This document shows positions 30,045 through 46,381 of a stretch of DNA of 64,000 nucleotides, in pieces; positions within the stretch are counted from its first letter, which is position 1; the number at the start of each line of letters is the position of its first letter. The stretch comes from an uncultured Flavobacteriaceae bacterium. Its GTDB lineage: Bacteria; Bacteroidota; Bacteroidia; Flavobacteriales; Flavobacteriaceae. The notes under the pieces were generated by a model, which searched no databases, was not told the origin of the DNA, and saw nothing but the letters and a program-made list of their open reading frames with translations. The stretch covers positions 1 through 64,000 of the forward strand of contig CANLCJ010000011.1 in assembly GCA_947489085.1 (NCBI GenBank), read 5' to 3'. Made by a program: the position numbers and the translations under genes.

Positions 30045-30310
30045 GTTTAGGTAAGTAAAAACTATAAGTGTTATTAAAGGAGGATGTAAATAGTATTGAA
30101 AAGTTGCTAAATATGGAACTAAAAAGCATTCTACTAGTTACAGTTAAGTACTCTGCATGCTTATTGACAAGTTTTATACTCGAAGTAGCATTACATAAAG
30201 TAGCCCCTAATTTGGATTGAGCAGAAAAAAATCGCATTAATTTGGTATAGTATTAGTACAACCAAATATAAATTAAATAATTACACTGCGCTAAAAAACA
30301 GCGTTTTAAT

Positions 30311-30979: not shown

Positions 30980-31195
30980 ACTGTGGTTTTTATTGGGCTT
31001 AAAAGTGATACTATACATTTCAAAGATATTTTATTATCTGAAATTGACCGTAAGGATTCACATTATTATAACAATTAAACAAGAATCGTACCTAAATAGT
31101 CCTTAAAATAGCGCACTCCTATCAAAAAATAAAAAACTATTGCTATGTGGTATCGTTTTTGTATTTCAACAGTCATTAACACAAACAAAAACATC

Positions 31196-31750
31196 ATGAG
31201 ACGAACAAAATCAAGCCCAGAAGTAAATGCAGGGTCTATGGCAGACATTGCATTTTTATTACTAATCTTTTTTCTTGTTACCGCAGCGATACCTAAAAAC
31301 AAAGGCATTTACAGAAAATTGCCAGAAAAATGTGTAGATGGTACTTGTAACACCGAGCTTAAGAATCGGAATGTTTTAAAATTAACGATAAACTCAAAAA
31401 ATGAAATTATGGTTAACGATGAAATTATTAGCCTAAAAGATTTAAAATCTAAAACTAAAGCCTTTATAGATAATAATGGAGACGGCAACTGTATATATTG
31501 CAATGGCGCTAAAGACAAAAAGCTTTCTGAAAACCCTAATAAAGCTATTATTTCTATAAAAACAGATAGAAACGCTAATTATAACCAATTTATACAGGTA
31601 CAAGACGAATTAACAAAAGCGTATTTTGAGTTGAGAAAAGCTTACAGTGAAGATATACTAAAAAAATCTATTGAAAATTTGAATGCTCAAGAACTTAAAG
31701 ACATTAAAAAAGCATATCCTTTAATTTTGTCTGAAGCTGAAATTGAATAG
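31196..31750 (+). CDS. ExbD/TolR-family protein, ExbD1-like, orphan
   Basis: A 184-residue inner-membrane protein of proton-driven energy transduction complexes. It opens with the ExbD block SPEVNAGSMADIAFLLLIFFLVTAAIP (residues about 6-32, one membrane helix with the proton-channel Asp in MADIAF). A periplasmic domain follows with the flavobacterial insert GDGNCIYCNGAKDKK and a second cysteine pair, CVDGTC. ExbD1 normally sits with ExbB, a middle protein and ExbD2; here no partner gene is adjacent. The start is the ATG giving MRRTKSS. A weak hairpin follows the stop near 31787-31818. Confidence 0.85.
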   Translation: MRRTKSSPEVNAGSMADIAFLLLIFFLVTAAIPKNKGIYRKLPEKCVDGTCNTELKNRNVLKLTINSKNEIMVNDEIISLKDLKSKTKAFIDNNGDGNCIYCNGAKDKKLSENPNKAIISIKTDRNANYNQFIQVQDELTKAYFELRKAYSEDILKKSIENLNAQELKDIKKAYPLILSEAEIE

Positions 31751-31895
31751 AAGTGATTTAAATAGTCTTTTACAAAAGGATTATTGTTTAAAAGCGTTAC
31801 AATATAAAGTGGCGCTTTCTTAATTTGCCTCCTACCCTAGCCTTAAAATATTCCAATTTTTCCTCAAGCTTATTTCAAAACAGAATACAAATAAA

Positions 31896-31922
31896 ATATA
31901 CGTATATGTTTTTGTACATTTG
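31896..31922 (+). promoter_or_regulatory. promoter with 12-bp palindrome before oxygenase operon
   Basis: The palindrome ATATACGTATAT (31896-31907) lies just before the -7 box TACATTTG (31915-31922), 27 bases from the ATG. Its position suits an operator that blocks or recruits polymerase. Confidence 0.45.
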
Positions 31923-31948
31923 TTTTTAATAGCATTAACATATCCTTT

Positions 31949-32899
31949 ATGAATAGTATTCCAAGTGTAGATTTAAACGATTTTACATCTAAAGACCCTT
32001 TAAAAAAGCAACAATTTGTAAAAGCATTAGGAGAAGCTTACGAAACTATAGGTTTTGTAGCCGTAAGAGGACATTTCTTAGATCGAAATCTAATAGAAAA
32101 ATTATACACTGAAATAGAAGCTTTTTTTAACTTACCTCTGGAGACCAAACAAAAGTATGAGGTTCCAGAAATAGCAGGACAACGTGGTTATGTTTCCTTT
32201 GGTAAGGAAAGTGCTAAAGGAAAAAAAGAGGGCGATTTAAAAGAGTTTTGGCATTTTGGACAATACGTTAATGCTACACAAGCCAAAGACTATGGTTACC
32301 CAGACAACTTGTATGTAGAAGAACTACCAGAGTTTAATACCGTAGGTAAACAGGCGTTTAAAATGTTGGAAAAAACAGCAAAATACATATTACAAGCTCT
32401 GGCAATACACATAGGGCTCGAAGCAACTTATTTTGATGATTATATACATAATGGCAATTCAATTTTAAGACCCATACACTACCCTCCAATAACTCAAGAA
32501 CCTAATAACGCTGTTCGTGCTGCCGCTCACGGAGATATTAATTTAATTACATTACTAATGGGAGCGCAAGGTAAAGGCCTGCAAGTACAAAATAACAAAG
32601 GCGAATGGTTAGATGCTATAGCTACAGAGGATGAGTTAATGATAAATGTGGGAGATATGCTATCTAGACACACCAATAATAAATTAAAGTCTACAATACA
32701 TCGGGTTGTTAACCCACCCAAAACAGAATGGGGCACTTCCAGATATTCTATACCATTTTTTATGCACCCTGTAAGCAGTATGAAATTGAATGTACTAAAG
32801 ACTTGCATTGATAGCGAAAACCCAAAACAATTTGAAGATATTACTGCTGGCGAGTTTTTAACAGAACGTTTAATAGAATTAGGACTTATAAAAGCTTAA
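31949..32899 (+). CDS. isopenicillin N synthase-like 2OG/Fe(II) oxygenase
   Basis: A 316-residue non-heme iron oxygenase. The iron triad is His194 and Asp196 (AAHGDINLITLL) and His251 (STIHRVVNPP), with the 2-oxoglutarate-binding Arg/Ser in SRYSIPFFMHP (about residue 265). The N-terminal half has the DIOX_N pattern (IPSVDLNDFTSKDPLK; YETIGFVAVRGHFLD; GYVSFGKESAKGK). Length and motifs match the IPNS/GA20-oxidase-like group. The substrate cannot be told; no biosynthetic cluster is present. First gene of a five-gene + strand run with its own promoter. Confidence 0.88.
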   Translation: MNSIPSVDLNDFTSKDPLKKQQFVKALGEAYETIGFVAVRGHFLDRNLIEKLYTEIEAFFNLPLETKQKYEVPEIAGQRGYVSFGKESAKGKKEGDLKEFWHFGQYVNATQAKDYGYPDNLYVEELPEFNTVGKQAFKMLEKTAKYILQALAIHIGLEATYFDDYIHNGNSILRPIHYPPITQEPNNAVRAAAHGDINLITLLMGAQGKGLQVQNNKGEWLDAIATEDELMINVGDMLSRHTNNKLKSTIHRVVNPPKTEWGTSRYSIPFFMHPVSSMKLNVLKTCIDSENPKQFEDITAGEFLTERLIELGLIKA

Positions 32900-32938
32900 G
32901 CACTACTTAAACCCGTTCTAATTTTTGTACAATAAAAT

Positions 32939-33268
32939 ATGGATTTAAAAGATCAACTTAAAAACCTGTTTCCAGATCATAACGAAGAAACACCAATAGA
33001 AGACCATTCTAAAACGCCAGACATTTGGCTCCAAGACGACCCTATTATTTGTAAATATGAAAAACGCAAAGGGAAACCCATCACGATACTGGAAGGCTAT
33101 ACAGGTGCAACAGAAGATTTTAAAACACTGGCAAAACAAATAAAAAAAACACTAAGCGTTGGAGGCAGTTTCAAAGACGATAAAATTATAATACAAGGCG
33201 ATTACCGTGATAAAATAATGACCATTTTAAAAGATAAGGGCTTTAAAGTAAAACGCGTTGGGGGTTAA
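32939..33268 (+). CDS. SUI1/eIF1-like translation factor (YciH family)
   Basis: A 109-residue protein. The last 80 residues are the SUI1 fold: KYEKRKGKPITILEGYTG, LAKQIKKTLSVGGSFKDDKIIIQGDYRDKI and ILKDKGFKVKRVGG, the exact block order of eIF1/YciH. The first 25 residues are acidic. It probably binds the ribosomal 30S P site and monitors start selection, as inferred for bacterial YciH. It lies 39 bases after the oxygenase gene. Confidence 0.9.
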   Translation: MDLKDQLKNLFPDHNEETPIEDHSKTPDIWLQDDPIICKYEKRKGKPITILEGYTGATEDFKTLAKQIKKTLSVGGSFKDDKIIIQGDYRDKIMTILKDKGFKVKRVGG

Positions 33269-33295
33269 TTTTCTTAGGCAAACCTATACTTATAG

Positions 33296-34159
33296 ATGGC
33301 GATACAAACATCAGAATTAATTATAAATCCAGACGGTAGCATATACCACCTTAACCTAAAGCCCGAACATGTTGCAGATACTGTAATTTTTGTTGGAGAT
33401 CCCGATCGCGTAGAACGGGTTACTCAGCATTTTGACCGTATTGAGTTTAGCATACAGAAAAGAGAGTTTAAAACCCAAACAGGCTATCTCAATAAAAAAC
33501 GAATAACAGTTATTTCTACGGGCATCGGAACAGACAATATTGATATTGTAGTTAACGAACTAGATGCTTTGGTAAATATTGATTTTAAGACAAGACAAAT
33601 TAAACCTAAACTAAAACAATTAGATATTGTTAGGATAGGCACCTCTGGAACAGTACAACCACATATTAATTTAGATTCCTATATCATAAACACCCATGGC
33701 TTAGACTTAAGTGGAACACTACAAGCTTACAATACCCAAGAAATTAACAATTCTAATATAGTAAACGCATTTATAGCACAAACAAGCTGGTCTGCCTCTA
33801 AAAGCAACCCATTAATTATACAGGGGAATACAGAATTAATTTCTAAATTTGAAAGTTCGTTAACACTTAAAGGACTAACAGCAACAGCTAATGGATTCTA
33901 TGGCCCGCAAGGCCGTAAACTAAGGCTGGCATTAGAAGACCCTTTACTAAACAAAAAAATGGCTGATTTTAGTTATAAAGGATTACAGATTACAAATATA
34001 GAAATGGAAACCTCTGGCATATATGGCTTAGCAAAGCTTTTAGGGCATCGTGCCGTTTCTTTAAATGCTATATTAGCAAACAGAGCCAATGGTACGTTTA
34101 GCAAAACACCTAAGCAAACCATAGAAAATTTAATTACCTATACACTAGAACGTATATAA
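33296..34159 (+). CDS. nucleoside phosphorylase
   Basis: A 287-residue PNP/UDP-phosphorylase-fold enzyme that splits nucleosides or related glycosides with phosphate. Motifs: VIFVGDPDRVERV (phosphate-binding Gly-Asp-Arg at about 29-35), ITVISTGIGTDNIDIVVNEL, VRIGTSGTVQP and ITNIEMETSGIYGLAKLLGH. The E-M-E-T-S-G ribose/base motif is that of uridine phosphorylase-like members. No gap separates it from the next gene: the binding protein starts on the base after its stop codon. Base specificity uncertain. Confidence 0.88.
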   Translation: MAIQTSELIINPDGSIYHLNLKPEHVADTVIFVGDPDRVERVTQHFDRIEFSIQKREFKTQTGYLNKKRITVISTGIGTDNIDIVVNELDALVNIDFKTRQIKPKLKQLDIVRIGTSGTVQPHINLDSYIINTHGLDLSGTLQAYNTQEINNSNIVNAFIAQTSWSASKSNPLIIQGNTELISKFESSLTLKGLTATANGFYGPQGRKLRLALEDPLLNKKMADFSYKGLQITNIEMETSGIYGLAKLLGHRAVSLNAILANRANGTFSKTPKQTIENLITYTLERI

Positions 34160-35017
34160 ATGAAAAAAGTAAATATTGGCGGTGTACCAGAACATTTTAA
34201 CCTCGCCTGGTACCTTACCCTAAAAGATGGAGAATACAAAAAAGAAGGCATAAATTTAAGATGGCAGGATTATCCTGGTGGCACTGGTGCTATGTGTAAG
34301 GCCTTACGAGACGGAGATATAGATATTGCCGTAATACTAACCGAGGGCATCACTAAAGATATTATTGCTGGTAATCCCAGTAAAATAGTGCAAACTTTTG
34401 TAGAGAGTCCTTTAATTTGGGGCGTTCATGTGGCACACCATGCGCCTTACTCCTCTAACAACGATTTAAAAGGCACAAAAGCCGCCATAAGCAGATACGG
34501 TTCTGGATCTCACCTAATGGCGTACATCAATGCCCAAAATAGTGGCTGGAATTTAAATACAGATTTGCATTTTGAGGTTATAAAAAACTTAGATGGTGCT
34601 ATAGAGGGGCTTACCAATAATGTAGCCGATTATTTTATGTGGGAGAAATACACCACAAAACCACTTGTAGACAACAAAACATTTAGGCGCGTTGCAGATT
34701 GCCCTTCGCCTTGGCCTTGCTTTGTTATTGCTGTTAGAGAAGAATTTATTACAGAAAATAAAGATACTCTTAAAACAGTTTTAGATATAATAAATAATAC
34801 AACGTCCGATTTTAAAGACATACCGAGCATAGATAAAACCATAGCTAATAGGTACGAACAAAAAATAGAAGACGTCCAAGATTGGTTGGCCATAACAGAG
34901 TGGTCTCAAGAACTTATAGACGAAAACACACTTATGAATGTGCAACAACAATTAAAAGCTCTGGATATTATACCAGAAATTGTAGCTTACGATAAGCTTA
35001 CGTATAACTTAAAATAA
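34160..35017 (+). CDS. NMT1/SsuA-type substrate-binding protein without signal peptide
   Basis: A 285-residue class II periplasmic-binding-protein fold. It opens MKKVNIGGVPEHFNLAWYLTLKDGEYKKEGINLRWQDYPGGTGAM (here shown only as the family start block VPEHFNLAWYL and WQDYPGGTGAM), then GDIDIAVILTEGITKDIIAG and ISRYGSGSHLMAYINAQ. It looks like NMT1/ThiY/SsuA proteins, which bind pyrimidine precursors, nitrate or sulfonates. There is no signal peptide or lipobox, so it should be cytoplasmic, which is unusual for this fold. It is directly joined to the nucleoside phosphorylase gene, so the ligand may be a base or nucleoside. No ABC permease or ATPase is nearby. Confidence 0.75.
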   Translation: MKKVNIGGVPEHFNLAWYLTLKDGEYKKEGINLRWQDYPGGTGAMCKALRDGDIDIAVILTEGITKDIIAGNPSKIVQTFVESPLIWGVHVAHHAPYSSNNDLKGTKAAISRYGSGSHLMAYINAQNSGWNLNTDLHFEVIKNLDGAIEGLTNNVADYFMWEKYTTKPLVDNKTFRRVADCPSPWPCFVIAVREEFITENKDTLKTVLDIINNTTSDFKDIPSIDKTIANRYEQKIEDVQDWLAITEWSQELIDENTLMNVQQQLKALDIIPEIVAYDKLTYNLK

Positions 35018-35036
35018 ACTTATACCTTTACAATAC

Positions 35037-36098
35037 ATGAAATTTTATTTAAACGCCGTTACAAAAAACATATTTAGTGTACTACTCGTACTTTTAGTTT
35101 TTACCTGTAAAGATGCACCAAAAGATTATGCAACGTTATCTGGTAAATTAAGTAATAAGGGCGACATAGAAGAACTTATTGTCTTTAATAAAGATAACGA
35201 ATATCGAAAAAAAATACAGCTTAACGAAGACGGTACATTTAGCGACACATTAAAAATAGTAGGTGGCAAATACACGTTTCAACTTGGAAAAAATTTCGGC
35301 TTTATCTATTTGAAAAACGATACTGAAACACAGCTAAATGCAGATCTTTCTAATTTATATGAAACACTACAGTTTTCTGGAGAAGGTGCAGAAAAATCAA
35401 ATTTTAATACCGAAAACATCAAGATCCATAAACAGCATTTAAAACCAACCTTAATGTCTAAATCTGAAGAAGATTTCACCGCTGCTTTAGATATATTAAG
35501 TACTGACTATAATGCGCTTAAAGAAAAATACGAGAATTTAGATTCTGAGTTTTTTAAAACTACCGATGAAGATTTAGAAAAACTAAAAACATCTTTAACC
35601 ACTTTTTACAATAAAAATAAAGCATCTACAGTTGGATTAACAGCAGGTACAGTATCTCCTGTATTTAGCAATTACGAGAATTACGATGGCTCTAAAACGT
35701 CCTTAAGCGATTTTAAAGGCAAATATGTTTATATAGATGTTTGGGCTACTTGGTGTGCGCCATGTACGGCTGAAATTCCAGCATTAAAGCGCTTGGAAAA
35801 GGCCTACCACAACAAAAATATAGCATTTGTAAGCTTATCTGTAGACGATGCGCGTTCTAATGGAGGCTCTATGGATAATGCCAGAAAAAAGTGGCGTAAC
35901 CTTGTTAAAGCTAAAGACTTAAGTGGTGTACAACTTTTAGCACCACAAGGATGGCAATCTCAATTTGTTCAAGATTATGGTATTAGAGGTATTCCTAGAT
36001 TTATTTTAATCGATCCTCAAGGAAAAATAGTCAATGCTAATGCACCCAGACCTTCAAACCCAGAAATTAAAGCACTTTTCGATGAATTAAAAATATAG
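35037..36098 (+). CDS. TlpA-like thiol-disulfide oxidoreductase lipoprotein
   Basis: A 353-residue exported protein. It has a lipoprotein-like leader (residues 8-26, LLVLLVFTC with Cys at 26), so membrane-anchored facing the periplasm. Residues about 30-200 are a DUF4369-like N-terminal domain (TLSGKLSNKGDIEELIVFN; GGKYTFQLGKN). Residues 210-350 are a thioredoxin fold with active site WATWCAPCTAEIP and cis-Pro in YGIRGIPRFILID. It follows the binding-protein gene by 19 bases and closes the operon. Likely reduces or isomerises disulfides of exported proteins. Confidence 0.88.
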   Translation: MKFYLNAVTKNIFSVLLVLLVFTCKDAPKDYATLSGKLSNKGDIEELIVFNKDNEYRKKIQLNEDGTFSDTLKIVGGKYTFQLGKNFGFIYLKNDTETQLNADLSNLYETLQFSGEGAEKSNFNTENIKIHKQHLKPTLMSKSEEDFTAALDILSTDYNALKEKYENLDSEFFKTTDEDLEKLKTSLTTFYNKNKASTVGLTAGTVSPVFSNYENYDGSKTSLSDFKGKYVYIDVWATWCAPCTAEIPALKRLEKAYHNKNIAFVSLSVDDARSNGGSMDNARKKWRNLVKAKDLSGVQLLAPQGWQSQFVQDYGIRGIPRFILIDPQGKIVNANAPRPSNPEIKALFDELKI

Positions 36099-36116
36099 AG
36101 AACGTAAAATTGCTTT

Positions 36117-36153
36117 AAAAAGGAGAAGTAACGTTCGGTTACTTCTCCTTTTT
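36117..36153. terminator. bidirectional terminator
   Basis: A perfect 16-bp stem (AAAAAGGAGAAGTAAC and its complement, loop GTTCG) with flanking A and T runs, between the TlpA-like gene and the convergent nnr. Confidence 0.9.
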
Positions 36154-36201
36154 TAGTTTTAAACCTATCCCATTCAGATATTGAATATAAGTAGCTTCAA
36201 A

Positions 36202-37752
36202 TTAAGCTTCTTCCTTAGTTTCAGAAACTTGCTGAGGCTCTGGTTGCTTAAATAAATCTATAAAAGCTTCGCCTAAATAATCTATAACATGACTTGCCAT
36301 TAAGCTTTGGTAGCCAAAACTTTCAACAGCTATATCTGCAGATTTACCATGTAAATACACCCCGAAAATTGCTGCAACAGAAGGATGGTACCCTTGAGCT
36401 AAAAGCCCCGTAATTATACCTGTTAACACGTCTCCACTTCCAGCAGTAGCCAAGCCGGGATTCCCTGTAGTATTTACAAATAATTTTTCATCGAAAATAG
36501 TTATTGTATTAGCCCCTTTAATTACTAAAATTACTTCATATGTTTTAGAGAACAGCTTGGCTTTTTCTAATTTATCGAAATCATTGTCCCACTTCCCTAT
36601 TAAACGTTCAAGCTCTTTAGCATGAGGAGTTAGTATGCTAAATTTAGGGAGCAAATCCAGAAACGTCTTATTTGTAGCCAGTATATTTAAGGCATCGGCA
36701 TCGATAACTAATGGGGTCGAATTTTGTTTTAGAAATAATTCGAATGCATTTACTGTAGCCTCATGTGTTCCCATACCAACACCAAACCCAACAACAGTAG
36801 GCGTAAAATCTAAATTAATAGCTGTAATATGGGCATCGTTACCATCTGTAAGCACCATAGCTTCAGGTAAGGCTGTTTGTAAAGGGATGTAACCACATTT
36901 AGGCACATACGCTGTTACTAAACCAGCACCTACAGCCAATGCTGCCTTACTGCATAAATTTACAGCACCAATTTTCCCATAACTTCCACCAACAATTACA
37001 GCATGTCCAAATTCCCCCTTATGAGAAAATTTATCTCTAGCTCTGTAATTAGGCAAAACATCATGCTTTCCAATAAGGTTAGCCTCTGTTGTCGTACTTT
37101 GTAAAAATTCAGGATCTAAACCAATATCTATAACTTCCCACTGCGTTGTAAATTTTGCTGTTTCAGGTAAAAAGAATACTAATTTAGGAGACGCAAAACT
37201 TAAGGTATACCCCGCCCATACAACGCCATCTTCATCTTTAACAGCACTATCTGTAGGTAAGCCAGATGGTATATCGATAGACAACGTAAAAGCTTTAGAA
37301 GCTCTAAATTTTTGAAATAGAGTTTTTACCCAATTGTCAATAGATTTATTTAAACCAATACCAAATACAGCATCTACAATAACATCTTGTTGTTCTATCT
37401 CTGGAAATTGAGAAGTCTCGTTAAGTAACGTTGGCCAGTTTTTAGTAATATTTTTTATTTTATCGTAATTAATTAAGAAATCCTTAGAGCGTTTGTCGCT
37501 ACAATTTACAACATAAGTGTGCACGTTATACCCATGAGTTACCAAGTGTCTGGCTAGAACTAAACCGTTACCACCATTATTACCTATACCGCAAAACACA
37601 TGTATAGGCACCTGCGCGCCCTGCATACGTAAATGTATCCAATTAAAAATTTGTGTCCCTACACGCTCCATTAATTCTGTAGAAGATATATTTTGGCGTT
37701 CTGCCGTAGTTTTATCACCCAAATACACCTGGGCTTTGGTAAATATTTTCAT
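36202..37752 (-). CDS. nnr: bifunctional NAD(P)H-hydrate repair enzyme Nnr
   Basis: A 516-residue two-domain enzyme that repairs damaged NADH/NADPH hydrates. Residues about 1-215 are the YjeF-N epimerase: VFCGIGNNGGNGLVLARHL, the Asp in IVDAVFGIGLNK and SIDIPSGLPTD. Residues 230-500 are the ADP-dependent dehydratase of the carbohydrate kinase fold: HKGEFGHAVIVGGSYGKIGAVNLCSKAAL, DADALNIL, LTPHAKELERLIG and the nucleotide loop NTTGNPGLATAGSGDVLTGIITGLL (each given in part). The order is as in E. coli YjeF/Nnr. A 20-residue C-terminal tail rich in Glu/Gln is extra. Divergent from the threonine operon. Confidence 0.95.
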   Translation of the reverse strand: MKIFTKAQVYLGDKTTAERQNISSTELMERVGTQIFNWIHLRMQGAQVPIHVFCGIGNNGGNGLVLARHLVTHGYNVHTYVVNCSDKRSKDFLINYDKIKNITKNWPTLLNETSQFPEIEQQDVIVDAVFGIGLNKSIDNWVKTLFQKFRASKAFTLSIDIPSGLPTDSAVKDEDGVVWAGYTLSFASPKLVFFLPETAKFTTQWEVIDIGLDPEFLQSTTTEANLIGKHDVLPNYRARDKFSHKGEFGHAVIVGGSYGKIGAVNLCSKAALAVGAGLVTAYVPKCGYIPLQTALPEAMVLTDGNDAHITAINLDFTPTVVGFGVGMGTHEATVNAFELFLKQNSTPLVIDADALNILATNKTFLDLLPKFSILTPHAKELERLIGKWDNDFDKLEKAKLFSKTYEVILVIKGANTITIFDEKLFVNTTGNPGLATAGSGDVLTGIITGLLAQGYHPSVAAIFGVYLHGKSADIAVESFGYQSLMASHVIDYLGEAFIDLFKQPEPQQVSETKEEA

Positions 37753-37848
37753 AAATAAAGCAATTATTGATTTTTCAGTTCTAAATAAGAATGTTTATTT
37801 TTTTTGAACGATTTTTTTATCGAATATAAGAATATTGTAAAAAAAAAG

Positions 37849-37885
37849 TTTTTGTTTTTTTATTAGGCTAAAAGTAATACTTTTG
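37849..37885 (+). promoter_or_regulatory. promoter of the threonine operon
   Basis: TTTTTG (37849-37854) and TACTTTTG (37878-37885), 23 bases apart, match the Bacteroidota -33/-7 consensus. The expected transcription start, about 7 bases on, leaves about 14 bases before the leader peptide ATG. Transcripts would therefore always contain the leader. Confidence 0.7.
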
Positions 37886-37905
37886 AGGTTGTATATATAA
37901 CGAAA

Positions 37906-38013
37906 ATGAATCATTTAAGCCGAAATAAAATTACGTTAAACGTTTTCTCTCCAGGAAACTCTTCTACTATTTTAGCTACAACTACAAATACAACAACCCT
38001 TTGGGGTTACTAG
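37906..38013 (+). CDS. thrL: threonine operon leader peptide
   Basis: A 35-codon ORF between the promoter and thrA, starting MNHLSRNK and ending ILATTTNTTTLWGY, then TAG. Six of eight codons at 37975-37998 are Thr (ACA, ACT, ACA, then ACA, ACA, ACC), preceded by an Ile codon. Such runs mark attenuation leaders, where ribosome stalling at scarce charged tRNA decides the RNA fold. Downstream, TTACTAGTT (38007-38015) and TTACAAT (38045-38051) can both pair with AACTATTGTAA (38031-38041), giving exclusive antiterminator and terminator shapes. The product itself probably has no function of its own. Confidence 0.8.
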   Translation: MNHLSRNKITLNVFSPGNSSTILATTTNTTTLWGY

Positions 38014-38067
38014 TTATATATTATTCCGGCAACTATTGTAATTTTTACAATTACATTCATTTTTTTT
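38007..38067 (+). promoter_or_regulatory. predicted threonine attenuator hairpins
   Basis: Terminator form: ATTGTAA (38035-38041) pairs with TTACAAT (38045-38051), or TGTAAT with ATTACA, followed by T8 (38060-38067). Antiterminator form: TTACTAGTT, which contains the leader stop codon, pairs with AACTA-tt-GTAA. A ribosome at the stop codon would mask the first strand and allow termination. The stems are AU-rich and short, so this needs a folding calculation. Confidence 0.55.
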
Positions 38068-38094
38068 CACATCTAAATTTCAATTCATTATAAA

Positions 38095-40539
38095 ATGAAG
38101 GTTTTAAAATTCGGAGGAACTTCTGTAGGTTCTTCAAAAAATATAAATAAAGTTATATCCATTTTAGAGGCTTACTCTAAAAAAAGTTCAGTTGTTTGTG
38201 TGGTATCGGCAGTTGGTGGTATAACAGATAAATTACTACTTGCAGGGCGTCAAGCACAAAGTAAAGACTTAGCATTTAAAGACACCTATGCATTTATTAA
38301 AGACAAGCACTTAAGCATTATAAAGGAATTAAATCCAGAGCATAACGCTGCAATATCTAAGTATGTTGAAGACAAGCTTTTGCAATTAAAAAGTTTGCTG
38401 GAAGGCATTTTTCTTATTAATGAAATCTCTCCAAAAACGTCTGATAAATTAGTGAGTTTTGGGGAATTACTATCATCTTATATCATTGCAGAAACAATGG
38501 TTAATAGAACGATTTCTGCAAAGCGTAAAAACACTCAGGAATTAATTGTTACAAATTCTAATTTCACAAAAGCTGAAGTAGATTACAAAATAACTAATGC
38601 TAATATTAAATCTTATTTTAATCAAGCCGAAGAACGTATTACTATACTTCCAGGTTTTATATCGAAATCTGCTTTAGGAGAACAAACAACTTTAGGGCGT
38701 GGTGGTTCCGATTTTACAGCCGCCATAGTAGCAGCAGCATTAAATGTAGAGCAACTGGAAATTTGGACAGACGTTAGCGGTATGTTTACCACCAACCCAA
38801 AATTGGTAAAGCAGGCCTACCCTATTAAAACAATTTCGTACCAAGAGGCTATGGAATTATCGCATTTTGGAGCTAAGGTACTTTACCCACCAACAGTGCA
38901 ACCTGTATTAGATTTAGAAATTCCTATACATATAAAAAATACTATGGCACCAGAGGAAGTTGGTACCATAATTTCTAATACCCCAGATGCTACCAGTACA
39001 CCTGTTAGAGGCATTAGCAATATTTCTAATATAGCCTTACTTACATTACAAGGCAGCGGTATGGTAGGTATTCCCGGTTTTTCCAAACGTTTATTTGAAA
39101 CCCTATCAAACGAGAAAATAAACATAATACTAATTACCCAGGCATCCTCAGAACATTCTATATGCTTAGGTATTGAAGAAAAAGATGTAGAAATAGCAAA
39201 AACAGCTATAGATATAACGTTCGAAAACGAAATAGCACTACATAAAATAGATCCTATAATTGTAGAAACAAATCTTTCTATAGTAGCTCTGGTTGGCGAT
39301 AATATGAAGAACCACCAAGGCATTAGCGGTAAAATGTTTTCCACTTTAGGTCGTAATAACATAAACATTAGAGCAATAGCTCAGGGCGCATCAGAAAAAA
39401 ATATCTCTATTGTAATTGAAGAAAACCAAGTTAAAAAAGCGCTTAATACATTACATGAAGTGTTTTTTGAAACAATTACTAAACAATTAAACGTATTTAT
39501 CACAGGAGTAGGTAATGTTGGCGAGCGTTTAGTAGAGCAAATAAACCAACAACACGATTACTTAAAAAAACACCTGAAAATAAATTTACGCGTTGCAGGT
39601 TTATCCAATTCTCGCACTATGGTTTTTGCAGAGAACGGTCTTAAATTAGACGCTTGGAAAACGCTTCTGGCAGATGGCGAAAAGGCTTCTTTAGAAGGCT
39701 TTTTTACTAACGCTAAAGCTTTAAATTTACGTAATAGTATTTTTGTAGATGTAACTGCAAATAAAGATGTTGCAAACCTTTATGCCAAATACTTAAAAGA
39801 AAGTATAGCTGTAGTGGCCTGTAATAAAATTGCATGCTCTAGTGCTTACGAAAATTACAAAGAGTTAAAAGAATTATCTTTAAAGTATAATGCACCACTT
39901 CTATTCGAAACTAATGTAGGTGCAGGCTTACCAGTTATAGATACCCTAAGCAATCTTATAGCCTCAGGAGATAAAGTAAACTCTATACAAGCTGTGCTCT
40001 CTGGCAGTTTAAACTTTGTATTTAATAACTTTAACGATACTACAAAATTTTACGATGTTGTTAAACAAGCAGGAGAAGAAGGCTATACAGAGCCAGACCC
40101 TAGAATAGATTTAAGTGGCGTAGATGTTGCACGTAAAATTTTAATCTTGGCTAGAGAAAGTGGTGTTGAAATGAATTTGGAAGACATAGAAAATATTCCA
40201 TTTTTATCTCCATCTGGATTACAAAGTGATACTGTAGAAGATTTTTATAAAACTTTAATTGCAGACGAAGCACATTACCAAAGTTTATACGCATCAGCAA
40301 AAGCTAATAATTGCCAGTTAAAATACGTTGCTAAATTCGATAACGGTAAAGCCAGCGTAAGTTTACAAGAAATTCCAGAAGGCCATCCTTTTTACAATTT
40401 AGAAGGCAGTGATAATATAGTAATGTTTTACACAGAACGTTACGCACAACAACCTATGATTATTAAAGGCGCAGGTGCTGGAGCAGACGTTACAGCCTCT
40501 GGTTTATTTGCCGATATTATTAGATTAGGTAATAATTAA
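38095..40539 (+). CDS. thrA: bifunctional aspartokinase/homoserine dehydrogenase I
   Basis: An 814-residue fused enzyme (E. coli ThrA 820) for the first and third steps of the threonine pathway. Residues 1-285 are aspartokinase: KFGGTSVGSS at the start, ILPGFISKSALGEQTTLGRGGSDFTAAI (given in part) for ATP and Asp. Two ACT domains span about 305-460. Homoserine dehydrogenase covers about 465-814: FITGVGNVGERLVEQI (NAD(P) loop), VVACNKIACSS, FETNVGAGLPVID and the substrate loop GYTEPDPRIDLSGVDVARK. ACT domains suggest feedback inhibition by threonine. First gene of thrABC behind the leader peptide. Confidence 0.97.
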   Translation: MKVLKFGGTSVGSSKNINKVISILEAYSKKSSVVCVVSAVGGITDKLLLAGRQAQSKDLAFKDTYAFIKDKHLSIIKELNPEHNAAISKYVEDKLLQLKSLLEGIFLINEISPKTSDKLVSFGELLSSYIIAETMVNRTISAKRKNTQELIVTNSNFTKAEVDYKITNANIKSYFNQAEERITILPGFISKSALGEQTTLGRGGSDFTAAIVAAALNVEQLEIWTDVSGMFTTNPKLVKQAYPIKTISYQEAMELSHFGAKVLYPPTVQPVLDLEIPIHIKNTMAPEEVGTIISNTPDATSTPVRGISNISNIALLTLQGSGMVGIPGFSKRLFETLSNEKINIILITQASSEHSICLGIEEKDVEIAKTAIDITFENEIALHKIDPIIVETNLSIVALVGDNMKNHQGISGKMFSTLGRNNINIRAIAQGASEKNISIVIEENQVKKALNTLHEVFFETITKQLNVFITGVGNVGERLVEQINQQHDYLKKHLKINLRVAGLSNSRTMVFAENGLKLDAWKTLLADGEKASLEGFFTNAKALNLRNSIFVDVTANKDVANLYAKYLKESIAVVACNKIACSSAYENYKELKELSLKYNAPLLFETNVGAGLPVIDTLSNLIASGDKVNSIQAVLSGSLNFVFNNFNDTTKFYDVVKQAGEEGYTEPDPRIDLSGVDVARKILILARESGVEMNLEDIENIPFLSPSGLQSDTVEDFYKTLIADEAHYQSLYASAKANNCQLKYVAKFDNGKASVSLQEIPEGHPFYNLEGSDNIVMFYTERYAQQPMIIKGAGAGADVTASGLFADIIRLGNN

Positions 40540-40570
40540 AACAGAATCTCCAACCACTAATCTTTATAAA

Positions 40571-41497
40571 ATGCGAGATGAAATAAAATTATTTGCACCA
40601 GCAACAGTTGCTAACGTATCCTGTGGTTTCGATGTTATGGGACTTTGTTTAGATACCGTTGGAGACGAAATGGTAGTGCGTAAAATACCCAAAAAAGGGA
40701 TTTATATAAGCCACATAAGCGGTTTCGATCTGCCTACCGAACCAGAATTAAACGTAGCTGGAGTTTCTGCCCTAGCCATGTATGATACACTAGATGTAGA
40801 TTTTGGATTTGAAATAGAAATCTATAAAAACATAAAACCAGGCAGCGGTATTGGAAGCAGTGCTGCCAGTGCTGTTGGAAGTGTTTTTGGCATGAACGCC
40901 CTATTAGGAAACCCCTACAATGCTACACAACTTACTGCATTTGCTATAAAAGGCGAAGCCTTAGCCAGTAAAACAGAACATGCCGATAATATCGCACCAG
41001 CACTCTTTGGTGGATTCACACTTGTTAAAAGCTTAAAACCTTTGCAAATCTTAGAGTTACCAACACCAGAAGATTTGTACGTTACAATAATACATCCACA
41101 AATAGAGGTAAAAACATCTGAATCTAGAGGCTTATTGCCAAAAGAAGTGAAATTGAACGACGCGATTGCGCAATGGGCTAACTTAGGTAGCCTTGTGCAT
41201 GCTTTGCATACCAGCGACTATGGGCTTATGAAAGACGCCTTGCATGATGTTATTGTAGAGCCACACCGCAGTAAACTTATTCCTTTATTTGGAGATGTTA
41301 AAAAAGCTGCATTATCTGCAGGCGCTTTAGGTACAGGAATTTCTGGCTCAGGCCCCTCTGTGTTCTCTATTTGTAAGGGTATAGATACAGCTACCAAAGT
41401 TAAAAACACCATAGAACATGTTTATATGGATCTTGGTATAGATTTTGATATGCATATTTCTAAAATAAACACTACTGGTGTAAAAATAATTGAATAG
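40571..41497 (+). CDS. thrB: homoserine kinase
   Basis: A 308-residue GHMP-family kinase that phosphorylates homoserine. It opens with FAPATVANVSCGFDVMGLC. The ATP loop is KPGSGIGSSAASAVG (about residues 90-104), and the C-terminal GHMP motif is GALGTGISGSGPSVFSIC. Length fits the family (E. coli 310). It lies 31 bases after thrA and 73 bases before thrC. Confidence 0.97.
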   Translation: MRDEIKLFAPATVANVSCGFDVMGLCLDTVGDEMVVRKIPKKGIYISHISGFDLPTEPELNVAGVSALAMYDTLDVDFGFEIEIYKNIKPGSGIGSSAASAVGSVFGMNALLGNPYNATQLTAFAIKGEALASKTEHADNIAPALFGGFTLVKSLKPLQILELPTPEDLYVTIIHPQIEVKTSESRGLLPKEVKLNDAIAQWANLGSLVHALHTSDYGLMKDALHDVIVEPHRSKLIPLFGDVKKAALSAGALGTGISGSGPSVFSICKGIDTATKVKNTIEHVYMDLGIDFDMHISKINTTGVKIIE

Positions 41498-41570
41498 TAT
41501 ATTGGTTTCATAAAAACGACATATAGTATATTAAACACAAAATAAATTCTTGCAATAAGAATAAATACAC

Positions 41571-42863
41571 ATGAAGTATTACTCTCTAAATAAACAAGCA
41601 CCAGATTCTACGTTTAAAAATGCCGTTATAAAAGGATTAGCTCCAGATAAAGGCTTGTATTTTCCAGAAAACATAGCGCCATTATCTCAAGAATTTTTCG
41701 ATAGTTTCGATACCCTGTCCTACTCAGAGATTGCATACGAAGCTATAAAACAATTTGTAACTCCCGAAATACCAGAGGCTACACTTAAAACCATAGTTGA
41801 AGACACGCTTTCTTTCGATTTTCCAGTAGTTAAACTTAATGAAAACATTTCTACATTAGAGTTGTTCCATGGGCCTACAATGGCTTTTAAGGATGTTGGT
41901 GCCAGATTTATGGCACGTTGTTTAGGATATTTTAATAAAGACAATACCAACGAAGTTACTGTTTTAGTAGCCACTTCTGGAGATACAGGAGGTGCTGTAG
42001 CAAATGGGTTTTTGGGCGTAAAGGGGGTAAAAGTCGTTATCTTATACCCTAGCGGTAAAGTAAGCGATATACAAGAAAAGCAACTTACCACCTTAGGACA
42101 AAATATAACAGCTCTAGAGGTAGACGGTACTTTCGATGATTGCCAAGCCATGGTTAAAACTGCTTTTTTAGACGAATCGCTTACCCGTGAGATGCAGCTC
42201 ACGTCTGCTAACTCTATAAACGTAGCACGTTGGTTACCACAGTTGTTTTATTTTATGTTTGCCTATAAGCAATTGCACAAAACTTATAAAAACATTGTGT
42301 TCTCCGTACCAAGTGGTAATTTTGGTAATGTATGTGCAGGTATGGTAGCCCAGCAATTAGGCTTGCCTATCAAACATTTTATCGCTTCCAATAATTTAAA
42401 TAATGTTGTAACACGTTATTTACAATCTGCTTTATACGATCCTAAACCTTCTATACAAACCATAAGTAACGCTATGGATGTAGGTGCGCCAAGTAACTTT
42501 ATACGCATACAAGAAATTTACAAAAATAATTTTGAGCATTTAAAAGATAATCTTTCGTCGTATTCGTTTACAGATGAAGAAACACGTAATGCTTTGCTAG
42601 AGATTTACGATAACTATAACTATGTTGCAGATCCACATGGTGCTGTAGGGTATTTAGGTTGTAAATCTTATTTAGAAAACAATCCAGATGCTCATTGTGT
42701 GTTTTTAGAAACAGCACATCCTACAAAATTTTTAGATGTTGTAGAAGATGTTATCAACGAAAAACAAAAATTACCAGAGCAGATACAAGCTGTAATGGGC
42801 AAGACCAAAGCAGCAACACGTATTGCGACATACACCGATTTAAAACAATTTTTACTTAAATAA
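41571..42863 (+). CDS. thrC: threonine synthase
   Basis: A 430-residue PLP enzyme that converts phosphohomoserine to threonine. The PLP lysine is in HGPTMAFKDVGARFMA (about residue 109), preceded by the usual MKYYSLNKQAPDSTFKNAV start. The phosphate-binding loop is VATSGDTGGAVANGF, and SVPSGNFGNVCAGMVA and ADPHGAVGYLG are further family blocks. The long form of ThrC as in E. coli and Bacteroidota. Last gene of thrABC. No strong terminator follows, only a weak AT stem, so some read-through into the next gene is possible. Confidence 0.97.
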   Translation: MKYYSLNKQAPDSTFKNAVIKGLAPDKGLYFPENIAPLSQEFFDSFDTLSYSEIAYEAIKQFVTPEIPEATLKTIVEDTLSFDFPVVKLNENISTLELFHGPTMAFKDVGARFMARCLGYFNKDNTNEVTVLVATSGDTGGAVANGFLGVKGVKVVILYPSGKVSDIQEKQLTTLGQNITALEVDGTFDDCQAMVKTAFLDESLTREMQLTSANSINVARWLPQLFYFMFAYKQLHKTYKNIVFSVPSGNFGNVCAGMVAQQLGLPIKHFIASNNLNNVVTRYLQSALYDPKPSIQTISNAMDVGAPSNFIRIQEIYKNNFEHLKDNLSSYSFTDEETRNALLEIYDNYNYVADPHGAVGYLGCKSYLENNPDAHCVFLETAHPTKFLDVVEDVINEKQKLPEQIQAVMGKTKAATRIATYTDLKQFLLK

Positions 42864-42934
42864 ATTAGAAATTTATAAACAACCAACTAAATTTTATAAA
42901 ATTTAAATAACGTATTTTTACAAAAAATTTAATT

Positions 42935-43975
42935 ATGAAACAAAGTTTTACTCAAATCGCAAAATTAATACTACTAAGCATGTTCGCGATGCCCGTATTT
43001 GCGCAAACTACAGTTTGTGAGGGTATTTTTGAAGAACAAAATGGATTATTAGTAATTGAAATGGAATCTGTTGATAGATCATTTGATTCTCGTTGGCAAC
43101 TCGCTAGCGAACCAGATCCAGATTTAGAAGGATCTACCATCAACTATATCTTCTGGAATGGGCCGCAATCTTTTAATGATTTATCTAATGCTATCCTAAG
43201 ATATAACATAAGAATTAATACTCCTGGTACTTATAGGTTTTTAGTAAGAGGACGTATAGGCATGGGAGATGAAAGAGATCTTCATAACGATTATTGGCTG
43301 AATATTGAAGCTGATGATTTTTTTGCTGAAAGATTTGTAGATGGTCAACTAGTAAGTACTTTAGGGGCTACACCAGAATGTAATGCTAACCCAGATAGAG
43401 GGTGTTCTGATAGTGCAAGAGATGAAGATGGTTTTATAAAAACATTTATGAATGTAACACCAACTAATGGTGAAGGCGTACCTAGAGTGTGGCGATTTGT
43501 TTCTAATGCGAACAATACTAGAGATGGTAATGATGTCACTAGAGGAGCACATTTACTTATAAGAGCTGTATTTAATGAACCTGGTAATTATGCTGTGAAT
43601 ATAGACGCGAGATCAAGCTATTTTTTCATGGATAAAATGATTTTATTTAGAGATGGTGTAGCCAGATCTACTGCCCAAGACTTGAATAACCCAGAATCTA
43701 CGTGTAATGAAGATGCTTTATCAACCGAAGATGTTGAATTAAACAGTAATGTTACTATCTACCCAAATCCTGCAAAAAACTCAATTGAATTTAATAATAC
43801 ATCAAATACAACTATCGAAAAATTAGTTTTAAGAAATGTGTTAGGTGCTACAATTCGTGAAATTGAAATAAAAAACTCTAAGCAAACTATAGATGTAAGC
43901 GACTTAAAAAGTGGTGTGTACTTTTTGTCTAGTACAGAAGGCGTAAATTTCACAAAACGTTTTATTAAATTATAA
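42935..43975 (+). CDS. secreted protein with type IX sorting domain
   Basis: A 346-residue exported protein: signal peptide 1-24 (MFAMPVFAQ), a beta-rich domain of about 230 residues, and a type A Por sorting domain at about 265-346 (VTIYPNPAKNSIEFNN; LRNVLGATIREIEI; LKSGVYFLSS; ending TKRFIKL). The main domain (LVIEMESVDRSFDSRWQ; PGTYRFLVRGRIGMGDERD; HLLIRAVFNEPGNYAVNIDARS) has the look of a carbohydrate-binding jelly roll as found in CBM6/35-like or malectin-type modules, but I am unsure. Sent to the cell surface by the type IX system. Confidence 0.8.
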   Translation: MKQSFTQIAKLILLSMFAMPVFAQTTVCEGIFEEQNGLLVIEMESVDRSFDSRWQLASEPDPDLEGSTINYIFWNGPQSFNDLSNAILRYNIRINTPGTYRFLVRGRIGMGDERDLHNDYWLNIEADDFFAERFVDGQLVSTLGATPECNANPDRGCSDSARDEDGFIKTFMNVTPTNGEGVPRVWRFVSNANNTRDGNDVTRGAHLLIRAVFNEPGNYAVNIDARSSYFFMDKMILFRDGVARSTAQDLNNPESTCNEDALSTEDVELNSNVTIYPNPAKNSIEFNNTSNTTIEKLVLRNVLGATIREIEIKNSKQTIDVSDLKSGVYFLSSTEGVNFTKRFIKL

Positions 43976-43999
43976 AATAAACACGTTTAATTAAATAAA

Positions 44000-44033
44000 A
44001 TCCAGTGGTAACTTTAACAGGAAACCACTGGAT
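44000..44033 (+). terminator. rho-independent terminator
   Basis: ATCCAGTGGT (44000-44009) pairs with ACCACTGGAT (44024-44033), then TCTTTTA. It ends the sorting-domain gene transcript. Confidence 0.8.
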
Positions 44034-44138
44034 TCTTTTATGTTATAAAGATGTTATGTTAAACAAATTCTAATTAACACCTTTAATTTTTTAGTACTGT
44101 TCTATAATATTATCTTTAATGCCGCTTTGAATCATCTT

Positions 44139-44756
44139 ATGAAGGAAAAACAAAAATCTAAAACAGGTAAATCAAAATTACAATTACTACACCAGTATTA
44201 CACTTATACTGGGTTTTATACTTTTGTGTGGCAAGCCGTTAAAAAAGCACTGCCTTATATTATTATTGCAGTTATTGCTATATATATTATCAACTATTTC
44301 TTTAATATAGAAGCTGCATTAATTAAACTAACAGAAACATTACCTTCTTATGGTGTATTGAGCTTCTTTTTTGTTTCTGAAACCTTACTTGGACTTATAC
44401 CACCAGAAATTTTTATTGCTTGGTCTGGTAAAATGCATGCGCCTTGGTTTTATTTGAGCCTCTTAGGCATTTTATCTTATCTTGGTGGGCTGGTCTCTTA
44501 TTGGATGGGACGCACAATTACAAAAATACCTTCTGTACGTACTTATCTTGAAGTAAAAATGGAAAAGCAATTGAGAAACTCAAAAAAATGGGGTGGTTTT
44601 CTAATAGTAGTTGGAGCATTGCTACCTCTCCCCTTTTCAATATCTTGTGTTGCGGCAGGTATTATACATTTCCCATTTAAAAATGTAGTGCTTTATGGTT
44701 CGCTTCGCTTACTGCGTTTTGCTATTTATGGCCTATTAATATTCAATATCTTATAA
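44139..44756 (+). CDS. DedA/VTT-like small membrane protein
   Basis: A 205-residue inner-membrane protein with four to five hydrophobic segments. The order VLSFFFVSETLLGLIPPEIFIAWSGKM (given in part), GGLVSYWMGRTI and a late VGALLPLPFSISCVAAG block resembles the VTT/DedA fold (E/G-rich loop, a glycine-rich reentrant segment, and P-F-x-x-G near the end). The start is the ATG giving MKEKQKSK; a TTG four codons earlier is less likely. Such proteins take part in lipid scrambling or proton-dependent transport. Function here not known. Confidence 0.6.
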   Translation: MKEKQKSKTGKSKLQLLHQYYTYTGFYTFVWQAVKKALPYIIIAVIAIYIINYFFNIEAALIKLTETLPSYGVLSFFFVSETLLGLIPPEIFIAWSGKMHAPWFYLSLLGILSYLGGLVSYWMGRTITKIPSVRTYLEVKMEKQLRNSKKWGGFLIVVGALLPLPFSISCVAAGIIHFPFKNVVLYGSLRLLRFAIYGLLIFNIL

Positions 44757-44820
44757 AAAGAGTTTAAAACACAAGGTTTACTGCTACTTCTATTTTAAAT
44801 TTGCAGAAAATTAGTCTTTT

Positions 44821-45105
44821 ATGTTTTCTCTGCTTAATAGTTTTAAAATTGTTGCTTTCTTAGAAGGTTTATCGTATTTACTGTTACTTTTTGTAGCTGT
44901 ACCCATAAAGTATATTGCTGGAGATCCGCAGTATGTCAAGTTACTAGGCATGCCACACGGTGTTTTGTTTGTGGCTTATATAGCCATTGCGTTTCTAATT
45001 AAGAGCGACTTTAAATGGCCTTTAAAAACATTTGTAATAGTACTCTTAGCATCGGTAATTCCTTTTGGTACATTCTATGTAGACAGAACTTATTTAAAGC
45101 GTTAG
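44821..45105 (+). CDS. DUF3817-family membrane protein
   Basis: A 94-residue protein with three membrane helices (about 8-26, 46-63, 70-88). It follows the DUF3817 order: FLEGLSYLLLLFVAVPIKY, then the conserved GMPHGVLFVAYI and a final IPFGTFYVDRTYL. Family members are small integral membrane proteins of unknown role. It sits between the DedA-like gene and the MscS gene on the same strand, 4 bases before the latter, so cotranscription is likely. Confidence 0.8.
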   Translation: MFSLLNSFKIVAFLEGLSYLLLLFVAVPIKYIAGDPQYVKLLGMPHGVLFVAYIAIAFLIKSDFKWPLKTFVIVLLASVIPFGTFYVDRTYLKR

Positions 45106-45109
45106 TAGT

Positions 45110-46381
45110 ATGTTATTTTTAAATACGCTAAGCGCAATAGGTCAATTTTACAAATTACGTCCAAACACTATAGTTAAGTACCTAATGCAGTTGGGAGTTT
45201 CCAGAGATGTAGCCAATTATTTAAGGATGATACTATTGCTTATTGGTTTGCTCGTCATTATCTTTATTGTAGACTTAATTATTAGAAAATTACTTATTGG
45301 TGCGTTCACACAATTTGCAAAGAAATCGAAAACACGTTTTGACGATTTGTTGATATCTAATGGTGTACCTAGAAACGTTGCCCACATTGTACCGCTTTTA
45401 ATTGCCATAGAGTTTGTTCCCGATGTGTTTTCGGGGTTTACTAATTTCGAGATTATTATCGAGAAATTGCTTAAGGTATTTGCAATTGTATTAACCCTAT
45501 GGATTGCGAGAAGCCTGCTTAATACATTAAAGGCTTTTTTAAAGACCTTACCACGCTTAAAAGATAAGCCCATAGACAGTTACATACAAGTGTTTATGAT
45601 TTTTGCCTGGCTAGGAGGCCTAATGTCTGCTATAGCTATAGTAACAGAAATTCCATTTCTAAAATTTTTAACAGGATTAGGCGCAATATCTGCTGTTATC
45701 CTTTTAGTATTTAAAGACACTATTTTAGGTTTTGTAGCCAGCATACAGGTTTCTATTAACGATATGGTTCGCATTGGAGATTGGATTACGTTCGATAAAT
45801 ATGGAGCAGATGGCGATGTTACAGAAATTACACTAGCTACAGTTAAAGTGCAAAATTTTGATAAAACAATAACTACTATTCCAACATACGCCCTAATATC
45901 AGATTCGTTTAAAAACTGGAGAGGTATGACTAATGCTGGTGGAAGACGTATAAAACGTGCGCTTTTTATTAAACAACATAGCATTAAATGTCTTACCGAT
46001 ACTGAAATTGAGGCCTTAAAGCAGATTGAACGTATTGCCAACTATATAACGACCAAACAAACCGATATAAACAAATACAACACCACGCACAATACCAACA
46101 AAGCATTGCCTATTAATGGTAGAAACCTAACTAATATAGGGCTTTTTAGAAAATACATTCAAACGTATATAGAGCAGCACTCTGGTATAAATAAGGATAT
46201 GACAATAATGGTAAGGCAGTTGGCGCCAACAGTTCAAGGACTGCCTATTGAAGTTTATGCGTTTAGCAATGATAAACGCTGGAGCAATTATGAATATATA
46301 ATGGCCGACATTTTCGACCACATTCTCTCTGCTGTACCCTATTTTCACTTAGAAATATCTGAATTTAATTTGATACACTAA
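45110..46381 (+). CDS. MscS-family mechanosensitive channel
   Basis: A 423-residue inner-membrane channel that opens on membrane tension. Four to five hydrophobic segments lie in residues 30-210. The pore helix and beta domain follow: FLTGLGAISAVILLVFKDTILGFVASIQV (given in part), then the MscS signature RIGDWITFDKYGADGDVTEITLATVKVQNFDKTITTIPT in pieces. It ends with VEVYAF-like and a final cytoplasmic domain of about 130 residues (AFSNDKRWSNYEYIMADIFDHIL). It resembles the YbdG branch of longer MscS proteins. It is coupled to the DUF3817 gene. Confidence 0.9.
   Translation: MLFLNTLSAIGQFYKLRPNTIVKYLMQLGVSRDVANYLRMILLLIGLLVIIFIVDLIIRKLLIGAFTQFAKKSKTRFDDLLISNGVPRNVAHIVPLLIAIEFVPDVFSGFTNFEIIIEKLLKVFAIVLTLWIARSLLNTLKAFLKTLPRLKDKPIDSYIQVFMIFAWLGGLMSAIAIVTEIPFLKFLTGLGAISAVILLVFKDTILGFVASIQVSINDMVRIGDWITFDKYGADGDVTEITLATVKVQNFDKTITTIPTYALISDSFKNWRGMTNAGGRRIKRALFIKQHSIKCLTDTEIEALKQIERIANYITTKQTDINKYNTTHNTNKALPINGRNLTNIGLFRKYIQTYIEQHSGINKDMTIMVRQLAPTVQGLPIEVYAFSNDKRWSNYEYIMADIFDHILSAVPYFHLEISEFNLIH

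Follow-up and report, generated by a model that had tools for sequence, protein, structure and literature searches.

We investigated the region upstream of the threonine (Thr) biosynthesis operon thrABC in a 64,000-nucleotide (nt) stretch of contig CANLCJ010000011.1 from an uncultured Flavobacteriaceae bacterium (this whole stretch is called the window below; its own genome has 3.65 Mb), where a conserved Thr-rich leader with a hairpin at its end precedes the first gene. The operon lies on the plus strand, as do all features described here unless stated otherwise, and its genes follow in the order thrA (38095-40539; bifunctional aspartate kinase / homoserine dehydrogenase I; NF006959, 1019.9 bits with a cut-off of 726), thrB (40571-41497; homoserine kinase; above the cut-offs of TIGR00191 and NF002288) and thrC (41571-42863; threonine synthase; above the cut-off of TIGR00260). 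These identities had been assumed in an earlier reading of the same DNA from its letters (the original prediction), and each gene indeed scores above the cut-off of an NCBIfam equivalog model. That reading had also proposed a TAnnTTTG promoter and a Thr-rich leader open reading frame (ORF), and both are found where it placed them: the -7 promoter box is TACTTTTG (37878-37885), a sequence also found in relatives, and 20 nt further downstream begins a 35-codon ORF with an ATG start (MNHLSRNKITLNVFSPGNSSTILATTTNTTTLWGY; 37906-38013, stop codon TAG at 38011-38013), whose end, ILATTTNTTTLWGY, contains six Thr among eight codons. The regulatory codon run itself is ACA ACT ACA AAT ACA ACA ACC (37978-37998; six Thr), and its last ACC is within the 5' arm of the hairpin at the leader end, P2.

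The Thr run is not a chance occurrence, since only 2 of the 61,370 stop-free 12-codon stretches in the window (six frames) reach seven Thr; the leader holds two overlapping 12-codon stretches with seven Thr. Related loci were collected by thrA protein similarity alone, and the best 80 of 373 relatives (72-90% identical) form our close set. The complete unit of promoter, leader, Thr/isoleucine (Ile) run and ACCC..GGG hairpin at the leader end is present in 78 of the 80 relatives, and all counts out of 79 loci given below refer to these 78 plus the window. The other two close relatives (L059 and L070) are without the leader unit; in L070 a similar promoter box apparently stands directly before thrA. 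For the 79-locus counts the leader frame was fixed by the hairpin (automatic ORF choice was wrong in a few rows, e.g. L003 and L009). This frame is open in 79/79 loci, as compared to 4/79 and 40/79 for the other two frames, and starts with ATG in 77 loci and with GTG in 2. Among the last 12 leader codons 46% are Thr and 17% Ile, with 5.6 Thr per leader. The Thr-rich leader is thus real and conserved: in the alignment of regions upstream of related thrA genes, which the original prediction had suggested as a check, the Thr-rich ORF is kept in 79 of 81 regions including the window, and a correctly placed leader with Thr/Ile codons before thrA recurs in other families. In this respect the locus resembles a classical attenuator, whose operon is preceded by a short ORF containing a run of cognate codons.

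Three hairpins were found between the leader start and thrA, of which P1 and P2 had not been named in the original prediction. P1 (37942-37959; 37942-37948 pairs with 37953-37959) is inside the leader ORF upstream of the Thr run, and its evidence comes from covariation and folding. P2 (37995-38008; AACCC-UUUG-GGGUU; conservation and folding) covers the last codons and ends 2 nt before the leader stop. P3 (38037-38055; UGUAAUU / AAUUACA; covariation and folding) is an A/U-rich hairpin between leader stop and thrA. Compared with shuffled sequences over the 79 loci, the mean folding z is -1.8 for P1, -3.7 for P2 and -3.4 for P3, with z below -1 in 60/79, 79/79 and 73/79 loci, respectively; the 40 nt before thrA fold at the level of shuffles (mean z 0.11). 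Because single-pair covariation gave one P3 pair (E 0.08) and nothing else below 1, we used a helix-level test on the 79 sequences (5-pair helices with at least 75% canonical pairs, in an alignment that ends at the thrA ATG), with 40 null alignments in which the inferred substitutions were placed anew on the tree. The best P3 helices score 93, 84 and 73 and the best P1 helix 73, as compared to a largest null maximum of 65; no other helix in this test exceeds more than about half of the 40 nulls. P1 and P3 thus covary above all 40 nulls, and no helix of an alternative fold does. The four core pairs of P2 are canonical in 79/79 close loci, and they are kept although the encoded residues vary (TTLWG, TTRLG, TTLLG).

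The original prediction went further and proposed that the operon follows the same logic as enterobacterial thrABC attenuation, with P3 and the T8 tract behind it as terminator and a competing pairing of TTACTAGTT with AACTATTGTAA. The T8 tract is present (38060-38067) and starts 4 nt downstream of P3 in the window, and the hairpin before it is genuine (-3.2 kcal/mol). The T-rich tail, on the other hand, is richer in T than in any other of the 74 loci with P3: the 10 nt after P3 contain 8 T in the window, 7 in seven other loci and 3.7 on average, which is lower than the 43% T of the whole gap between leader and thrA. A terminator scan (mismatch-free stem with five or more pairs, folding energy of -5 kcal/mol or lower, T-rich tail) found matches in 2/79 thr regions, as compared to 11/11 for histidine (his), 11/11 for phenylalanine (phe) and 1/3 for ilv leaders. 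The his and phe leaders were recognised by codon content and not by a terminator (among 19 and 20 loci, own genome included), and the three ilv loci were chosen by eye; the two missed ilv loci have mismatched stems, so the scan gives a lower bound. The own genome itself carries a leader with His codons (MIITQNHHHIHTCKQAR, L101) before hisG and one with Phe codons (MRTTAFYTYFNFFYFFFSKRSETLYV, L123) before pheA, each with a classical terminator. Since related genomes, the own genome among them, have such classical hisG and pheA attenuators, the missing thr terminator is not a general flavobacterial trait. The alternative pairing reaches -2.6 kcal/mol in the window, where 128 of 200 shuffles are as good, and over the 79 loci its mean is -2.4 kcal/mol versus -2.0 for shuffled partners, without covariation. 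It is as stable as the window's in 14/79 loci (window included), and it is at or below -4 kcal/mol in 7/79 loci (9%) versus 12% of the shuffles. By the scan, then, 77 of the 79 loci showed no intrinsic terminator between the leader and the first gene, and no mutually exclusive antiterminator backed by conservation or covariation emerged from the covariation and shuffle tests; the proposed terminator/antiterminator pair is not supported as real or conserved. As attenuation of the enterobacterial type needs both an intrinsic terminator and a competing antiterminator, the same logic is unsupported here, with terminators in 2/79 loci and an antiterminator near shuffle level.

We then searched with thrA through the order and the phylum as well as two additional families, and picked P2-type leaders by eye. 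This gave 17 further P2-type leaders in three families: one in another genus of the window's own family (L151), five in family f5 of the same order (L156, L157, L158, L203, L204) and 11 in family f18 of the same class (L177, L231, L234, L236, L238, L240, L241, L247, L248, L249, L251). In these 17 leaders the outer pair of P2 varies on both sides (A-U in 7, U-A in 6; canonical in 14/17), and the P2 of L240, read directly from the sequence, is AUCCGC/GCGGAU. The leader stop codon lies 6 nt after the P2 start, i.e. in the P2 loop, in 14/17 (exceptions: L151, L248 and L251), and the codon inside the P2 stem is Thr in 16/17 as well as in 79/79 close loci. Beyond the close clade the element is patchy, being found in 5 of 51 loci (L151, L156, L157, L158 and L177; considering ORFs with 10 to 60 codons within at most 480 nt upstream). 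Out of 27 full-length f18 loci (L177, L181, L230-L254), 11 have the element, L254 has a classical attenuator, L181 has a terminator-like stem (by eye) and 14 are without a convincing leader; out of 11 full-length f5 loci (L156, L203-L212), three have the element, two are classical (L211, L212) and in six no leader was seen. Classical thr attenuators that are positive in the terminator scan occur in L183, L211, L212 and L254, all from other Bacteroidota, which means that two leader types would control thrA within the group. Used as a leader marker, the pattern ACCCNTTNGGGTT has 3 matches in the own genome, one of which is the thr leader.

Downstream of the leader stop is a motif, AUAUUAUUCCGGC (38018-38030), which by eye resembles AUAUUAUCC..GGGC of other families: the window's clade has AUAUUAUUCCGGC or AUAUUCUUCRGGC, and many of the 17 distant loci have a motif like AUAUUAUCC..GGGC about 20 nt after P2. 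Some of this motif is complementary to the G-rich arm of P2, and a pairing of that arm with the post-stop CUUCRGG motif is possible, with a mean of -4.5 kcal/mol versus -2.3 and -2.5 for two control segments. The motif is in a G-poor gap of 81 nt between leader stop and thrA (38014-38094). In most loci about 82 nt separate the leader stop from thrA; in L008, L031 and L035 this distance is 273, 170 and 147 nt, reflecting insertions between leader and thrA. Without three regions that carry long insertions, the 76 thr gaps contain 6.5% G, as compared to 13.0% in 165 upstream regions of the same loci, and have a C-G skew of 0.36 (-0.01 in controls, 2% of which reach it), although shared ancestry means fewer independent cases than these numbers make it appear. 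The gap of the 17 distant P2-type loci has a mean of 10% G and 20% C.

Taken together, the leader very probably has a sensing role, and perhaps it senses tRNA-Ile in addition to tRNA-Thr. P2 is probably the switch. For the system as a whole we lean towards a leader-peptide sensor of charged tRNA-Thr that controls thrABC with an output other than intrinsic termination, which we hold to be rather likely from the conserved sequence features. When threonine is ample, the ribosome would pass the Thr run, terminate and depart, P2 would close and expression would be low. Under threonine shortage, ribosomes would dwell on the last Thr codons, beside or inside the P2 5' arm, and keep P2 open; this would release the G-rich 3' arm, which in many species could pair with the post-stop stretch, and expression would rise. 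The output is the most speculative part of the proposal: it would be something other than intrinsic termination, and a first guess is that Rho terminates transcription in the G-poor gap. We folded the leader while blocking a ribosome footprint that extends 15 nt upstream and 12 nt downstream of the A-site start (our choice). P2 forms with a mean probability of 0.91 when no ribosome is present and of 0.00 when one of codons -3 to 0 or the stop codon occupies the A site, zeros that follow from the chosen footprint. For A-site positions -3 and -2, mean probabilities of 0.45 and 0.44 were obtained for pairing between the G arm and the post-stop stretch. By this model, a ribosome stalled on the last Thr codons would hold P2 open, which one stalled on Thr codons further upstream would not.

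Several observations weigh against this proposal. When one of codons -6 to -4 is in the A site, P2 stays mostly free (mean 0.94-0.76, window 0.97-1.00), and because many Thr codons are at these positions the switch could have either sign; P2 is also blocked by a ribosome on the leader stop codon. The pairing of G arm and post-stop stretch is weak in the window (0.00-0.07; 0.02 at -3 and 0.07 at -2), does not covary, and swapping partners across loci costs nothing (z -0.3). P2 has an invariant core in the close set, so covariation cannot show for it there. The low G content of the gap would suit entry of Rho, or no more than a start region that is kept open, and its count of YC dinucleotides is within the control range, such that Rho is only suggested. 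The element is not universal either: among the other full-length loci of the same family (L148-L151), it is found in L151 only (1/4). Finally, the terminator scan of the 17 distant P2-type leaders has matches in L249 (upstream of P2) and in L240, where the match is P2 itself together with a T-rich tail behind it.

Other explanations start from the same features. If leader ribosomes altered the folding or decay of the leader mRNA, and through it thrA translation or the life of the message, transcription would be unaffected, and this would fit a structured, conserved leader without a conserved terminator and with a mostly constant spacing from stop to thrA. In predictions for the full transcript, only about half of the thrA start (-15 to +10) is unpaired (mean 0.48, and under 0.5 in 55/78; thr loci only), and for a helix between the leader start and the segment before thrA (37904-37908 with 38086-38090) 81% of cells are canonical. 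This helix, however, does not covary (all 40 nulls score higher, in an alignment that ends at the thrA ATG), and local folding is at shuffle level not only just upstream of the thrA start but also from -40 to +30 (mean z 0.26), and we consider translational or decay control unlikely. Slightly less likely still is ribosome-mediated attenuation of the classical kind, with P3 and T8 as a weak intrinsic terminator and TTACTAGTT/AACTATTGTAA as antiterminator, even though P3 covaries, T8 follows it closely in the window, 8 of the 74 P3 loci have at least 7 T in the next 10 nt, and classical thr attenuators do exist in other Bacteroidota. The energy of P3 in the window is far from the mean terminator energies of phe (-13.3 kcal/mol) and his (-15.7 kcal/mol), the T content after P3 is on average below that of the gap, the antiterminator is at shuffle level in the window and hardly better across loci, and P3 was not found in 5/79 loci that retain P2.

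Pause hairpins synchronise polymerase and ribosome in the trp and his leaders of E. coli, and P2, a short hairpin that does not vary in the close set and lies at a nearly fixed distance from the post-stop motif (by eye), could mainly pause RNA polymerase in step with the leader ribosome, with termination elsewhere or via another factor; pausing alone yields no on/off output, and we regard this as very improbable. Returning to a leader-peptide sensor with P2 as its switch, one could go on to define a separate class of leader switches in Bacteroidia, in which a hairpin that encloses or abuts the leader stop and holds the last regulatory codon does the sensing, the output is not an intrinsic terminator, and which is found before thrA in three families and at least two orders, with other genomes using classical attenuators for the same gene; on such a class our judgement is evenly balanced.

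Amino acid attenuation is the textbook case of ribosome-polymerase communication. The enterobacterial thr operon leader, which we take to be Rfam family Thr_leader (RF00506), likewise has a Thr/Ile-rich leader peptide right before thrABC and the ribosome as sensor; the element described here differs in having no conserved intrinsic terminator/antiterminator and in a P2 at the leader end that includes the last Thr codon. The Thr_leader family has no match in window positions 30000-46000 up to an expectation value (E) of 5, and Rfam scans gave no match above the gathering score in the window, L156 or L231. In a permissive scan of Rfam the sole overlap was Staphylococcus-1 at 37927-38045 (22.8 bits versus a cut-off of 87.7, E 3.4). 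The classical his, phe and thr attenuators of Bacteroidota (L101, L123; L183, L211, L212, L254) share a cognate-rich leader before a biosynthetic gene, whereas they have a GC-rich terminator and a U tract that the thr element lacks. In Rho-dependent attenuation of the tnaC type, control is at the leader stop codon and free tryptophan is sensed through the nascent peptide. A control point at the leader stop codon and possibly a Rho output (a candidate here) would be shared with tnaC; here, unlike there, the peptide is variable except for Thr/Ile and the last residues. Bacteroid-trp RNA (RF01692) is linked to trp genes, i.e. to another amino acid, and has no match to the window. It is listed as a predicted cis-regulatory RNA of Bacteroidetes (Weinberg 2010, PMC2864571).

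For F. psychrophilum, the accessible text of PMC9723704 reports strong clues that leader peptides attenuate amino acid operons, and it describes conserved 5' elements ahead of pheA and hisG that have no Rfam hit; it names no thr element or terminator-less design, and the word threonine is absent from its main text as accessible. Small ORFs reminiscent of leader peptides are mentioned in the accessible part of PMC7366714. The parts available of PMC2965389 do not mention Bacteroid, Flavobacteri, threonine or thrA, and those of PMC4833913 mention neither threonine nor thrA. No description of this thr element was found in the literature searched, the coverage of which excludes most subscription papers. 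Amino acid-sensing leader peptides are a known kind, known in flavobacteria generally, and the terminator-less form with a stop-codon hairpin for thr looks like a new variant. That it occurs, conserved, in genomes with classical his and phe attenuators makes it a natural setting in which to ask what other outputs a stalled leader ribosome can have, and it supplies a specific candidate by which flavobacteria and their relatives may control threonine genes, for which Rfam scans gave no model at these loci.

A few further candidates in the leader region were tried and rejected. Pairing between the leader 5' untranslated region and the post-stop segment is better with the own than with swapped partners (z -4.4, 0/5000), yet one of three controls also reaches z -2.8 (24/5000) and the tree-based covariation test gives no support. 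Pairing of the Thr codons with the P3 5' region has z -2.6 (17/2000), but 39 of the 40 nulls score higher. In 61/79 loci the -1 frame relative to the leader (38001-38093 in the window) has no stop between P2 and a point at most 15 nt before the thrA ATG, or even further on, and in 30 loci it ends as ATGA overlapping the thrA start; translation of a second ORF, or a -1 frameshift into thrA, is not claimed, as the substitutions in 29 of 79 loci have no coding signature (synonymous z -0.7), in a test that is weak (the true leader frame has only fewer new stops, z -2.0, and a wrong frame gave a stray positive, z 2.3).

Around the -7 box, the 17-mer TAAAAGTAATACTTTTG (37869-37885) is similar across many relatives (by eye), and its degenerate form TAAANRTAATACNTTTG has a single match in the 3.65 Mb of the own genome, which is 37869-37885 itself; judging from the sequence, the 17-mer may act as a strong promoter or be bound by a regulator. 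The thr promoter is adjoined by a divergent NAD(P)H-hydrate dehydratase/epimerase gene (36202-37752 in the window, minus strand). A second bifunctional aspartokinase-like gene (L082; G000:C32, 38375-40774), 36% identical to thrA, has an open frame of 1133 codons. At another locus (L132, 164-224, minus strand), the Rfam scans gave a SAM-II riboswitch match with 48 bits (gathering score 44).

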